Source: Chromera velia (taxonomy: Eukaryota > Sar > Chromeraceae). From it: 64,000 bases of DNA. The stretch spans positions 51,636 to 115,635 of the forward strand of contig JAHBMJ010001140.1 in the NCBI GenBank assembly GCA_018398765.1. Reading direction: 5' to 3'. The position numbers were made by a program, and so were the translations under genes. A model generated the notes under the pieces. That model did no database searches and was not told where the DNA came from. It saw only the letters and a program-made list of their open reading frames with translations. Within the stretch, counting starts at the first letter, position 1. Each line of letters opens with the position of its first letter. Of the stretch, positions 1,233 through 47,700 are shown piece after piece.

Positions 1233-4200
1233 ATGCAGCATCAAAACCAACAGCCTCTTGCGCGGAAAAAGACGCGTTCCATTTTGCCCCGCGCTTCTCC
1301 GCGAAGCACTGCACACTCTGCACGGCTTTCTAAAAAGCTCGAGGGCAGCCCAAGCTCGCCCATTTTCTCCCCACTCACTGTGGACACACCCATTGCAGAG
1401 GGTCTTGCTCAGCATACCAATGACTCCAGATCCCCAGCCATCCAGTTGCTCCCACCAGCCGATGGAGGCACAGAGGCCCCTGTGCAAATCCACGGAGAGA
1501 AGCTCCCGCAGCCACCAAAGGTCTCGCCTGCAGTTCTTCGTGCCCTTCACCACCGTCTACCTGCTTATTCTCGTCTGCAGTCGTTTGACGCGCCGTGCGA
1601 CATCTCCAAGCTGGGGGGGCTGCCCAGAAGGCTTCCCTCGAGAGATCTGCGGGCTGCTCTTGAGAATATCCGCAAGAGCTGTCTGCGTCTCCGGCAGGAG
1701 TTTGCACCTGACCTTGACTCTCGAAAAGACGATTACGGAAAGAAAGGGCGGGGAAAGGGGGGGAAAGAAAAGACAAAACCGCAGCAGCAGAGAGAGGAAG
1801 CTGAAGGGAAACAAAGGGAGGAGGTTCTCTCACTTCGGCCCCTTCCCTTGACCATCCACCGAAATCAGAAGGCAGATGAGTGCCTGAACCCCCCAAAAGA
1901 CAAGCGACACTTCGTCAGACGCAAATCTGAGCACCGGGATTCAGGGACAGGCACACATTCCGGTTCTGCCCCTCCTCCCGACCTAGAATTAGACGTCGAC
2001 CTAGATTCTGCCCCCTTTGTTTTCGAAGAAGTCCTCTCGTCGATCGAGCGCCTCACTGACCTCGTTGGTAAATTCTCTGCACACCTCAAAAATCTCAGTG
2101 CGGATGATTTTTTGGGACAGACAGGGATGGGCACGATGGCGGGGCTGCAGAGAGCGAAATCGACTGCGTCAATAGCAAGCAAAGCGGGGGGGGACAAGCC
2201 CCAGTTGGGTAAGAGGGGCTCTATGACTCTGACAAAGCTGCAACCGTCGGCTGCGGCAAGTGCCCAGCCCACCTCTGCCCTCCAGGCGGCCATTTTGGAG
2301 ACCCTGCCGTTCCTTCCGGACTCCTCAGACAACGACAGGCAGGGAGTGCTCAGCGTGTCGGCAGAAGCTAGGGTGAAAATTCGGGTGCAGGCCGCAAGGG
2401 TGTGTCAGTAAGTCAGTAAATCAGTCAGTCAGTCAGTAAGTCAGTAAATCAGTCAGTCAGTCAGTCAGTCAGTCAGTCAGCCAGCCAGTCAGTCAGTGAG
2501 TCAGCCAGTCAGTCAGTCAGTCAGTCAGTCAGTCAGTCAGTCAGTCAGTCAGCCAGTGAGTAAATCAATCAGTCATTTGAAGTAAAGAAGGAACGGGGTA
2601 TAGAAGCAACGCAGGGATGGAACAAAAGAAAGGAAGTAGAGAAGGGGGGAAGGAGGAGGGAAAAAAAGCAAGAAAGTGATCCGCAGAGTGCCAATCATGC
2701 GGACAGATTTTTTTATTTCCTCCTCATTCATACAGCCGTCTCTCTCTCCCTGTCTGAGTGCGTGCATGTGTGTGTGTGCGCGCTTGTGTCCCCTCTTTCG
2801 CCTGTCCTCTGTCATATGCCGCCAAGATTCGTTCATTGAGTCATTCAGCAGCTGGGGCTGCATGTCCTTTCGGTCTGCTCAAGAATGATTGTCAATAGAT
2901 CCATTTGATCTTTCTTTGCATTCCCCCTCACTCAAACTTCCCCCCCCCCTTGCAGGTTGGTTCCGCTCCTTTTGCCAACCGTCCCCTCTACTTTCCCTTT
3001 CCTGACCTCTTCATTCCGCAGAGGGCGAAGGGAGCCAGCACCTCGCCCTCTCGAAAGGGAAGCAGGTCTCACTCTCTAGCGTTCTCCCGGACCAACAGCA
3101 GGCTACTCGATCTCAGCCTTACCTCTGCAGCAGGCACACACGACGGTCTCAGTCTGCATGGGCGCAGCGGCACTAGGGACACACTCGCAGACGACGAATC
3201 CCAAATTCCTCCACGGGACCCCTCCGAGCCCTCCCCGCAGTCTCTGAAGTCCACACGAACTGATGATGCCTTGTCTGAAGGTGACTTTATGTCTACTGCC
3301 GGCGTTCCGGCCTCCGCCTCCATTGCCGCATGGCCGACGGTCCACGAGGTCAAACTTCTGCAAGGTGCAAAACTGGAGGGAGAGGAGGAGGACAAGGAGG
3401 CGGACAAGGAAGATTCGGAAGAGAAAAAGAGAGAGAAAGAGAAAGAAGCGGAAGGAGAACCGAAAGTTCAAAAGAGACGCGAATCGATCTCCTTCAGAAG
3501 GGAGTCTGTATCACAGAGAAGAGAGTCTGTGTCTGGCAAAGAGTCTTCTCCTGAGAAAGAGAAACAGGCCAGAGAGAAGGAACTTGAAAAAGAGAAGGAG
3601 AAAGAGGAGCAGCAGAATAGGAAAAGAAGGAGTAAAGACCGGGCAAGGAGGAGAGAAGCCGCTCGCCAAGAATGGAAGCGGAGAATTATCAATCAATCCT
3701 CCCAGCAGAGAATGGATAAACTCACAAAGGTTCCAACGTACAATCACAGGATCCTGGGGGAACGAGGGGTAAGTGACTCAGTCAGTGAGTGAGTGAGTGA
3801 GTGAGGGAGTGTGCCAAATGGTCAATGCTTCTCTTGACACAGTCTTGTCTTTCGTTGATTGTCCCGATCGAGGTGTGTGTCGAGAGCAGGAGAGAAACAG
3901 ATCGTGCAGTTGAATAATTAAGATGCAGTGTCAGGAGGATGATTGGGAAAGTAAGGATGGTGTAGAATGAATGAAGGAAGATGCAAGGAGAGGAAGTGAG
4001 AGAAACATGGCAGGTGATGGATGGATAATCAATCGGGCTGGCCGCTTGGGTGGCAAACAGCAGCTAGGCGATATGTCGGAGGGAGAGCCTCTGTTTCTCA
4101 TCGCTATTCAGTTAGACGGCTGTGTAGCGGTTGCAAGGTGAGCCTAGTTGGGTGGACCGCACCAGAAAGTGAGATGAGCGGCTAAGCATTTAACAAAGGT

Positions 4201-44767: not shown

Positions 44768-47700
44768 ATGCTGTTTGCAGAGCTAGACCGCGTGCAGCCC
44801 ATTTATGACATGCTGCAGAATCCTTATCCGGAACTGGAGAGAGAAAGTGAAGAGTACTTGCAGCGAACAAAGAGAGACGATGTAGTGCTCGAAGCAGCTC
44901 GACGGATCTTCAACAGAGACCGTGGATCCCAGACAGGGGTGGAGGGGGAAGATGTAGGAGTCAGAGTGGGGCGTCGGGTGAGCATTCGAGAGCAGGATCG
45001 ATTCAGTGTAGGAGGAGGAGGAGGAGGTGTGGGCGGAGATGGATGGCTTCTGCAGCGTCAGAGAGAGCGGGAGAGGGAAAGGGAGAGACGGCGACGCGAG
45101 AGAGGGTCGGCAGAGACGGCAAGTGCACATGGAGGGACTACGGCATCTCGTGCTTTTGGGGGTAGCGCGCACATGTATCCAGATGCGTTGAGTGTGGTGG
45201 ATGGGAGTGCATTTGCGGGACGAGGAGAGAGTGACTCGGATGGCTCCTTTGTCTCCGGGTCCTCTCAGGGATGGAGCGAGTCGGATGACGGGGGAGACTC
45301 AGACTATGACGAGGGAGACGGAAGAAGTGTAGATGGGGCCAGTACGCGGCGTGGACAAGGGCCCCGGCTTGGAGGAGGGGGGCCCTTCTCTTCTCCTTTG
45401 TCCCCGTCGCCAGCGGGGCCCTCGAGGGGCGTGGAGGTGCTTGGGGAAGGGTCGGTGAGGGGAGGTGGGGGAGGGTGGACGAGGAGTGTTGCACGTTCGA
45501 GGGGCCGCGGTCGTCGAAACCGGCGGCGCCACGGAAAGAGCCGGGGGCGCGGGAGGTCTGATAGGCGTCATTCGCTTGTGCACCAGTCCGCAGTGCAGTC
45601 TCGTGCGTTTCAAGAGCTTGCAACAGCCGGTGCATTTGAGCCATTCGACAGACGCGTTGACTTTCTGCTTCCTCAGAGCGTCCGAGAGCATCTGCACAGG
45701 CAGCAGCTGCATGGGGGGGCACGCAGGGACCTGGCTGAAGATTTGAATGCCCTGAGTGCGCAGTACATCTCCTGGATCGAGAAGAGACGCCTTCTGCCTC
45801 GATCGGCACAGCAACTTCATGTGCACCAAGTGAGCCAGTCAGTGAGTCGGGGTCCACGTGGGGAGGCCTGCTTGGCTCCTTTTTGCTTGCTCTTTGGTCC
45901 TGTCTGGAAGCTGCTGGTAGTGTGTCTCGGAGTCTGCATGTTGACAGTTTTTGTTTTCTGTCTCACCAGCCAGTTGAGATCTTCTTCTGATGGTGTTGTG
46001 CTTAGGTTTGTTCTTTCTTTTGAGCTTTCTTCTCCATTCTCGCTTTCCTTCTTCCACTTTTCCCTTCAGATCGGCAGTGGCGACGAGCCAGTGATAATGA
46101 TCCACGGGCTGTTGTCTACGTCGGCTTTTTGGATCGAGGGCGTCTGCAAGCACCTTTCTGCTTCTGCTCTCCGAAAGTTCTGCATCTTCTGTCCCGATCT
46201 CATCGGGTATGGGAGGTCTGAGAACGTGCACTCGTCGACGTACTACTCCATGAGGGAACAAGTGGGTGGGTGGGTGGGTTGGGCCGTTTGTTTGTGTATG
46301 GAGGGGGGATGGGATGTGCACTTGTACAGATGTGTTCAGCTTTTTTGGGGTTGTTTCATTTGAAACAGTTTCTCCGTGCTGAGCTGAGCACCGACCTACG
46401 TGAGATGAACGCACAAAGAAGAAAGACGGAGAAACCACAAAAACTGGTAGCGTAACCAAAACTGGACAAGCAAGGTTGGCCTTTCTCTTCTACTTGCTTG
46501 ATGCTGTTCTCTCTCTCTCTCTCACTCTCTCTCTCTCTCTCACACACACACACACACACGCACACACACAAACACACACATGGGTTCTCATCTCTTGATG
46601 TGGAAAAGAAAGTCCACCCTACAACCTTTCCCTCCCTCACCCTTTGTCGATGCTGCCGTGCAGGCGCGGCGTGTGTGGTCAGACGTTGTCGAGAGGTTCC
46701 AGCTCTCGCACATCCATTTGGTGGGACATTCTTTCGGAGGTCTGGTTGCACTCCAGGTTAGTGGTCCGTTGTCATGGTTTTCTTCTTTCAGAGGTTGTTT
46801 TTCCCTTAAGCAGCGGTCACACGTGGAAGGTGGTGGCGCCGGGTCTCGTGTGTGTGTGTGTGTGTGTGTGTGTGTGTGAGTGAGAAGGAGGGTGGGGGAC
46901 AGAGGTTGTCCATCGAAATGTGTCGTCGTATCTGTGCGATACGCACCTTCACGTTTATTTCTCTCTCTCTCTATGTACGTGTGTGTGCATGTGTATTGTT
47001 TCGGGACTGTTCTGTTGTTGCATACCTTCAGGTATACACTCCCAACGTGTGGCACTCTCTGTTCGTGTTTCCGTGTAATTTAGTTGTTCACTGGTGCAAT
47101 TGACGGTCGTTTGGGCGAGCCTGACGATGCGTGAATAGAGCAGAAAAAAGTATAGCAATTGCATCAGTGGCAAATCCGCTGAAGCACAGGGTACGAGCGA
47201 CTCCTGTGGCTGTGACACGCGAAGAGGAGATGAAATCTGTTAATATACGTGCGGATGTTGGTCGCCAGGCGGGCCCTAAACTGATTCTGCAACATTTTAG
47301 AGACACAATCCGTTTTGGTTCTCTCTATGGTTGTCCCAACTGACTGACTGACTGACTGAATGAATGAATGAATGAATGAATAATGCAGATGGCTGCTGAC
47401 CACAAGGAGCGGGTGAAGTCGGTGCTCCTCTACTCACCCGCATACTTTGCAAACCCCGCAGAGGCGGCGTCCCACATCAACTCTCTGGTTTTTCCTGTCA
47501 ACCAGGTCTGTCTGTCTGTCTGTCTGTCTGTCTGTCTGTCTGCGATGAAGAAAAAGAGGGAGAAGAAGAAGAAACATATAGTCTGTCTGTTGCAAAAAAG
47601 GAAAGTAAAGACGATATAGTCTGCCTGTCTGTCTCCAACATATAGTCTGTCTGTCTTGAAAAGAAAGGACGATATGGTCTGTCTCTCAGTCTCTCTCTCT

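Follow-up and report, generated by a model that had tools for sequence, protein, structure and literature searches.

The presence in several Chromera velia genes of introns that open with a four-base tandem repeat, the repeat starting at the splice donor itself, raises the question as to whether such arrays grow out of the splice signal or serve it. The window in which they were noticed is a stretch of 64,000 bases (contig JAHBMJ010001140.1, contig bases 51636-115635), and we compared it with other loci and with the rest of the assembly. We observe directly that period-4 arrays are anchored at both ends of introns, that their donor edge is asymmetric, that they are nearly absent from exons and that long arrays stand at donors about as often as at matched seeds in mid-intron. 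The arrays are likely to be tetranucleotide microsatellites that have grown neutrally from the splice signals inward in 4-base steps.

A period-4 comb at predicted donors

Introns were modelled with a joint both-strand hidden Markov model (HMM) in which simple repeats are neutral in scoring and donor information is confined to positions -3..+6. Training used the window together with 20 stretches from contigs chosen regardless of repeats (241,467 gap-free bases, 0.14% of the genome), and the intron set analysed here comprises 177 gap-free introns with both flanking exons above a score filter, 51 of them within the window and 126 from the 20 other loci. The modelled donors follow the consensus AG^GT[C/G]NGT (^, exon boundary), with C at 0.46, G at 0.34 and A at 0.14 at +3, G at 0.86 at +5 and T at 0.66 at +6, so that a second GT stands four bases after the first (GTNNGT) in 111 of the 177 donors. 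The modelled acceptors follow TGCAG^G, with TGCAG in 122 of the 177 introns.

Downstream of these donors GT recurs at every fourth base. Its frequency at +5/+9/+13/+17/+21/+25 is 0.63/0.30/0.19/0.16/0.14/0.16, compared with 0.01-0.11 at the positions in between and 0.071 in mid-intron, and the comb is also present in the 126 introns outside the window (0.58/0.25/0.14/0.11/0.10/0.14 at the same positions). When the model was given GT alone for donors the comb stayed, at 0.49/0.24/0.12 at +5/+9/+13, although fewer donors then carried arrays (a score of at least 8 at 15 of 182). The arrays consist of head-to-tail 4-base copies, both by their letters and by Tandem Repeats Finder (TRF), as expected of tetranucleotide microsatellites; perfect runs are few in the local sample, where they are often broken by interruptions.

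Arrays were counted at score thresholds of at least 6, 8 and 14. At a score of at least 8, 21 of the 177 introns have the 5' edge of an array within -4..0, and in 11 it falls exactly on the donor G, a rate per base ~40 times that in the 62,327 intron bases beyond +30, which hold 97 such edges. Fresh array starts at the same threshold are found at 24 of 177 donors, at 90 of 4080 GTs in mid-intron and at 52 of 8348 intergenic GTs. An earlier note on this DNA had held that the anchoring would be chance if such repeats were as common in mid-intron and intergenic DNA; donors prove richer both per base and per GT, but once GTNNGT is matched the advantage survives against intergenic DNA and shrinks to near parity with mid-intron, as set out below. 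No array scoring at least 8 is present at 152 of the 177 donors, and a faint comb persists in array-free donors (GT 0.20 at +9 and 0.12 at +13). The window is richer than average, with arrays scoring at least 14 at 9 of its 51 donors versus 3 of the 126 donors elsewhere.

Array donors of the window

The earlier note had named eleven sites, on both strands, at which the repeat unit was said to be the donor itself. Read directly from the sequence, all eleven show GT in period-4 register and the donor-anchored repeats are real. The units quoted for them stand literally at seven (12069, 13197, 39966 on the minus strand, 5748, 9603, 47506 and 46262), and the other four open differently with the register kept: 2404 with GTCAGTAAG, 3769 with GTAAGTGAC, where the GTGA run begins only at ~3784, 7367 with GTAAGTGAG and 4691 with GTCAGTGTGTCTG. 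TRF starts its array exactly on the site at 2404, 12069, 13197, 39966 (minus) and 47506. As donors, nine were placed by the HMM at the exact base (4691, 5748, 7367, 9603, 12069, 13197, minus 39966, 46262 and 47506); for the site at 2404 the donor was placed 4 bases upstream, at 2400, in register, and 3769 was not called as a donor by the HMM gene model. The intron at 9603 lies outside the set of 177, its downstream exon being a doubtful 1-base exon. These sites, two donors absent from the earlier note and one acceptor-side example are as follows, with the source of each in brackets.

2400..2575, plus strand: predicted donor (2400 or 2404) and GTCA array of ~43 copies (letters, TRF, HMM)
3769..3811, plus strand: donor of the earlier note, GTAAGTGA, then a GTGA array; not called by the HMM (letters, TRF)
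4691..4753, plus strand: predicted donor GTCAGTGT leading into a GTCT array (letters, TRF, HMM)
5748..5764, plus strand: predicted donor GTCCGTCTGTCTG with a short array (letters, HMM)
7367..7489, plus strand: predicted donor GTAAGTGAGTGAG with a GTGA/GAGG array of ~120 bases (letters, TRF, HMM)
9603..9620, plus strand: predicted donor GTCCGTCTGTCTGTCTGT, with a doubtful exon after the intron (letters, HMM)
12069..12267, plus strand: predicted donor and GTCA array of ~49 copies (letters, TRF, HMM)
13197..13241, plus strand: predicted donor and GTCA/GGCA array (letters, TRF, HMM)
18361..18429, minus strand: predicted donor GTCGGTCGGTTGCTTG and decaying TTGN array, absent from the earlier note (HMM introns; TRF 18362-18420)
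39814..39966, minus strand: predicted donor and GTCA array of ~38 copies (letters, TRF, HMM)
46262..46279, plus strand: predicted donor and GTGG array within an alpha/beta-hydrolase domain gene, the Pfam score favouring the first GT (letters, HMM, Pfam)
47341..47385, plus strand: TGAC/TGAA array ending ~3 bases before a predicted acceptor (ATGCAG; the exon beyond it starts at 47389), the acceptor-side example (TRF, HMM)
47506..47542, plus strand: predicted donor and GTCT array of 9 copies, in the same alpha/beta-hydrolase domain as 46262 (letters, TRF, HMM, Pfam)
63522..63533, minus strand: predicted donor GTCTGTCTGTCT, absent from the earlier note (HMM introns, letters)

Under the GT-only model the donors at 4691, 5748, 7367 and 2400 are unchanged, while 12069 and 46262 shift downstream by 12 bases, minus 39966 by 24 and 13197 by 48, and 47506 shifts upstream by 18. 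As five array donors slide in this way, the reading frame alone cannot fix the donor inside an array. With the acceptor fixed, the frame disfavours donors at +4 and +8 and permits +12. Homology gives some further placement. The donors at 46262 and 47506 both lie within an alpha/beta-hydrolase domain recovered as one continuous Pfam match (101.1 bits); with the donor at 46262 placed 12 bases further downstream the Pfam score drops from 103.7 to 96.2 bits, so that the first GT is favoured, and moving that at 47506 is neutral (103.7 to 103.4 bits).

We also looked at eight kinesin-gene loci selected by Pfam exon matches, 8 of many matching genes, with 25 modelled introns. Donor arrays (score at least 6, two period-2 repeats excluded) are found at 4 of the 25, two of the four adjoining an exon that scores 1.0 and so falls below the filter applied to the 177. 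One of the kinesin introns, that starting GTGAGTGAGTGAGTG (locus L041), is flanked by Pfam matches of which one ends at profile position 202 and the next runs from 198.

Edge phases across the assembly

Counts independent of any gene model were taken over the whole 177.8 Mb assembly (4040 contigs), an edge being taken as sharp where four perfect units adjoin a flank in which no base agrees with the array. For (GTCA)4 the sharp 5' edges begin in phase G/T/C/A 736/97/241/352 times (chi-square 630 vs even phases), and sharp 3' edges fall after A/T/G/C 223/168/258/185 times (chi-square 23, p about 4e-5). A symmetric seed would favour 3' edges after T, and these are the fewest (168); the strong bias is that of the 5' edge. 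In total, 1426 sharp 5' edges of (GTCA)4 stand against 834 sharp 3' edges, which bears out the earlier description of repeats that decay downstream. Among the first 100 matches listed, G immediately precedes 65 of the GT-phase GTCA edges, compared with 0.30-0.32 at background GTs passed through the same filter. For a second unit, the genome contains 142 cases of CAG^(GTCT)4 and 12 of the mirror image.

A separate observation concerns TATAGTCTGTCTG, a motif that is probably a dispersed repeat, found genome-wide, in the window at 47577-47585 and at over half of 100 listed GTCT edges.

A mirror comb at acceptors

The same period is found, reversed, at the other end of the intron. TG at -5/-9/-13/-17/-21/-25 has a frequency of 0.71/0.30/0.20/0.15/0.21/0.15 in the 177 introns, with 0.03-0.17 at other positions and 0.087 in mid-intron, and TGC reaches 0.14 at -9 and 0.09 at -13 (mid-intron 0.022). 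This comb is weaker than that at donors and holds outside the window and under a model given AG alone for acceptors. Array 3' edges in the last 5 intron bases number 11, with 1.55 expected. An earlier acceptor test at a score of at least 8 had given 14 of 177 acceptors versus 9.3% of mid-intron AGs, without excess, against a control that includes AGs inside arrays; the idea that anchoring is confined to donors was dropped when the edge and comb test revealed it at acceptors also.

Proposed seeding and growth of the arrays

Period-4 arrays cover 0.1-0.2% of exon bases, 5-7% of intron bases and 1.7-2.4% of intergenic bases. In order to compare like with like, donors were set beside other fresh GTNNGT sequences. 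At a score of at least 8, arrays are found at 24 of 104 such donors, 53 of 383 mid-intron seeds (p=0.03), 33 of 194 antisense-intron seeds and 20 of 583 intergenic seeds; at a score of at least 14 the counts are 11 of 104, 34 of 383, 23 of 194 and 11 of 583. Outside the window the matched counts are 12 of 69 donors and 32 of 276 mid-intron seeds at the lower threshold, and 2 of 69 and 20 of 276 at the higher. Since long arrays are about as frequent at matched mid-intron seeds as at donors, long donor arrays need no donor-specific process; the seed would come from the splice signal and the tendency to grow from the intron.

These results fit best with growth from the splice signal. In donors of the form AG^GT[C/G]NGT a second GT follows the first at a distance of four bases, and the pair would be the smallest possible period-4 seed, to which in-register slippage or tandem duplication could append GTNN units. 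Each in-register gain would lengthen only the intron and leave the first GT within an intact donor, with splicing and frame unaffected, while out-of-register insertions or deletions would destroy the donor, and units gained in the exon would put the reading frame out. If only intron-ward gains in register are harmless, the array edge should be sharp at the exon, with growth and decay into the intron. On the acceptor side, TGCA copied upstream would keep the last AG intact. Selection may then maintain the splice signal at the intron end while seeds in mid-intron decay. We infer that the units are added by slippage and that it is selection which makes the edge sharp. The earlier proposal that slippage is seeded by the splice signal therefore stands as the best fit, given the 111 of 177 GTNNGT donors and the matched parity with mid-intron, but without U1 pairing as its driver.

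Several points weigh against this account. The introns are ab initio predictions, and slippage is suggested by the sequence of one assembly. Since the acceptor TGCAG contains no period-4 word of its own, the acceptor comb would have to start by duplicating a single copy. A first added unit was counted at 21 of 104 donors versus 30 of 383 matched mid-intron seeds (p=0.0009), and some factor beyond the seed and the intron background may be involved. In the genome-wide counts, A stands at -2 in 33 of the first 100 GT-phase edges listed, compared with 60 of 90 modelled donors that were filtered alike, and part of these edges may not be ordinary donors. The bias for GTGA is weaker, with 205 5' edges in the GT phase and 111 in the other G-starting phase, counts that cover only these two phases of the 4, and with 164 and 131 3' edges. 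A GTCT phase count (1698 vs 696) was set aside as confounded by a TATAGTCTG repeat and replaced by the CAG-flank mirror test; among the matches listed, ~59 of 100 GTCT edges, counted by eye, have a TATA flank. Finally, coding-like sequence was sought upstream of 20 of the 736 GTCA arrays in the GT phase, sampled at intervals of five from the first 100 listed, and was found in the sense direction at 12 of 20 and antisense at 11 of 20, compared with 97 of 295 random positions, a weak result given the similar antisense count.

Alternative explanations

By the rules of base pairing a canonical U1 end suits GTAAGT best. Of three U1 matches, the two that we examined have the canonical ACUUACCUG end, both copies starting canonically (AAACUUACCUGG) while donors prefer C at +3. 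With such a U1 end, C at +3 of the donor should be unpaired with U1 and not matched by a changed U1. One U1 copy, at 1501-1629 of locus L048, is a second copy with the same 5' end and a weak 3' part; at 48.2 bits it falls below the family cut-off and is perhaps a variant or pseudogene.

The arrays might be functional, either as a ladder of U1 sites that overlap or as a splicing enhancer within the intron, and be selected because they strengthen donors whose pairing at +3 is poor. The preference for C at +3 despite a canonical U1, from which donors may be weak, would agree with this, as would the ~2.6-fold excess of the first added unit over matched intron seeds and the residual comb in array-free donors. 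We nevertheless regard a ladder or enhancer as unlikely on sequence grounds. The array units are not the best partners of U1 and instead track the general donor spectrum (GTCA, GTGG, GTCT, GTGA and GTCG, with GTAA at 1 of 33; p=0.53), and the 33 array donors show no shared enhancer motif, their ten first units being proportional to the donor hexamers. A weaker exon side was not found at array donors (AG^ in 12 of 34 vs 61 of 143, p=0.56). Donors do not exceed mid-intron seeds in long arrays, most donors do without an array scoring at least 8, and the mirror comb at acceptors goes beyond what U1 explains, the acceptor anchoring lowering the odds of a ladder. Because the units follow the donor spectrum and an acceptor comb cannot come from U1, U1 pairing is not the driver of the arrays, and a functional role as donor ladder or enhancer is not supported by the sequence.

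A broader version would have selection extend the splice signals into combs at both ends: where U1 is canonical but donors prefer C at +3, GTNN units would give U1 overlapping registers of which the first is chosen, and TGNN units would do likewise for the acceptor. We hold this to be quite improbable; were it true, splice strength would be set by repeat number and could be changed in 4-base steps.

The acceptor anchoring slightly raises the odds of a further possibility, that the introns themselves arose by microsatellite expansion or insertion in exons, through intronisation or in an introner-like manner, leaving arrays at both ends as relics. Arrays do concentrate at both intron ends, repeats such as (GTCA)n contain both GT and CAG, and one predicted 51-base intron (locus L046) consists mostly of a TTTG repeat up to its acceptor, with a next exon that scores below zero. 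However, the type of unit is GTNN at donors but TGNN at acceptors, the arrays found make up just 5-7% of intron bases, and introns with arrays are only somewhat longer than those without (median 371 vs 298, p=0.02), so that an origin of this kind appears very unlikely.

Least probable of all is an artefact in which the gene model or the reader takes whichever GT borders an array in repeat-rich introns, since, although arrays make up 5-7% of introns, five called array donors are displaced by 12 to 48 bases under the GT-only model and the donor model takes in +5/+6, the genome-wide edge-phase and mirror-pattern counts are independent of gene models, the comb is kept with GT-only donors and Pfam exon matches lie on both sides of the kinesin array intron.

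Relation to known systems

The arrays resemble tandem donors of the GTNNGT type. In human A5E-delta-4 donors, as outlined in BMC Genomics in 2008 (PMC2423196), a second GT given by the +5/+6 consensus is a potential alternative donor, and tandem donors have been treated in other genomes (PMC2423196, PMC1779574). The arrays described here likewise repeat GT four bases after the donor; unlike the human overlapping pairs, for which that work has transcript evidence (PMC2423196), they are known from sequence and extend the register to as many as ~49 units.

Like intronic tetranucleotide microsatellites in general, the arrays have a period of 4 and imperfect copies and are nearly lacking in coding exons. 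They differ from these in having the 5' edge on the donor, a unit that copies the donor and a weaker mirror at the acceptor. With the introner elements of algae and dinoflagellates (treated in PMC7789003) they share the shaping of protist introns by repetitive DNA, and unlike those elements they are simple tandem units that vary between introns. Among the literature matches listed, by title and the opening of the abstract, no report of donor-anchored tetranucleotide arrays was found, subscription journals being mostly outside this coverage.

If arrays do grow in this way, functional signals can seed repeat growth that is tolerated in one direction only, leaving a genome-wide comb at intron ends. 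The genome would also offer many natural donors with a 4-base ladder (hundreds for GTCA alone, by the edge excess) with which to test how the spliceosome chooses among identical GTs. For gene finders there is a caution, as the position of a donor within an array of this kind is ambiguous in steps of 12 bases.

Other observations in the window

Two further arrays lie outside modelled genes, GTAAGTGAGTGA at 49718-49759 and a 234-base GTGA array at 50010-50243, and are possibly donors of an unmodelled gene. Long arrays with a 38-base unit containing CTCTGCTCAG occupy 15892-16951. At 36444-36964 a long predicted exon on the minus strand contains four tandem copies of 129 bases (95% matches), 129 bases being 43 codons. 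The predicted gene at 17843-24056 on the minus strand, which we take to be NOL9/GRC3-like, carries a CLP1 P-loop domain (PF16575, 80.4 bits).

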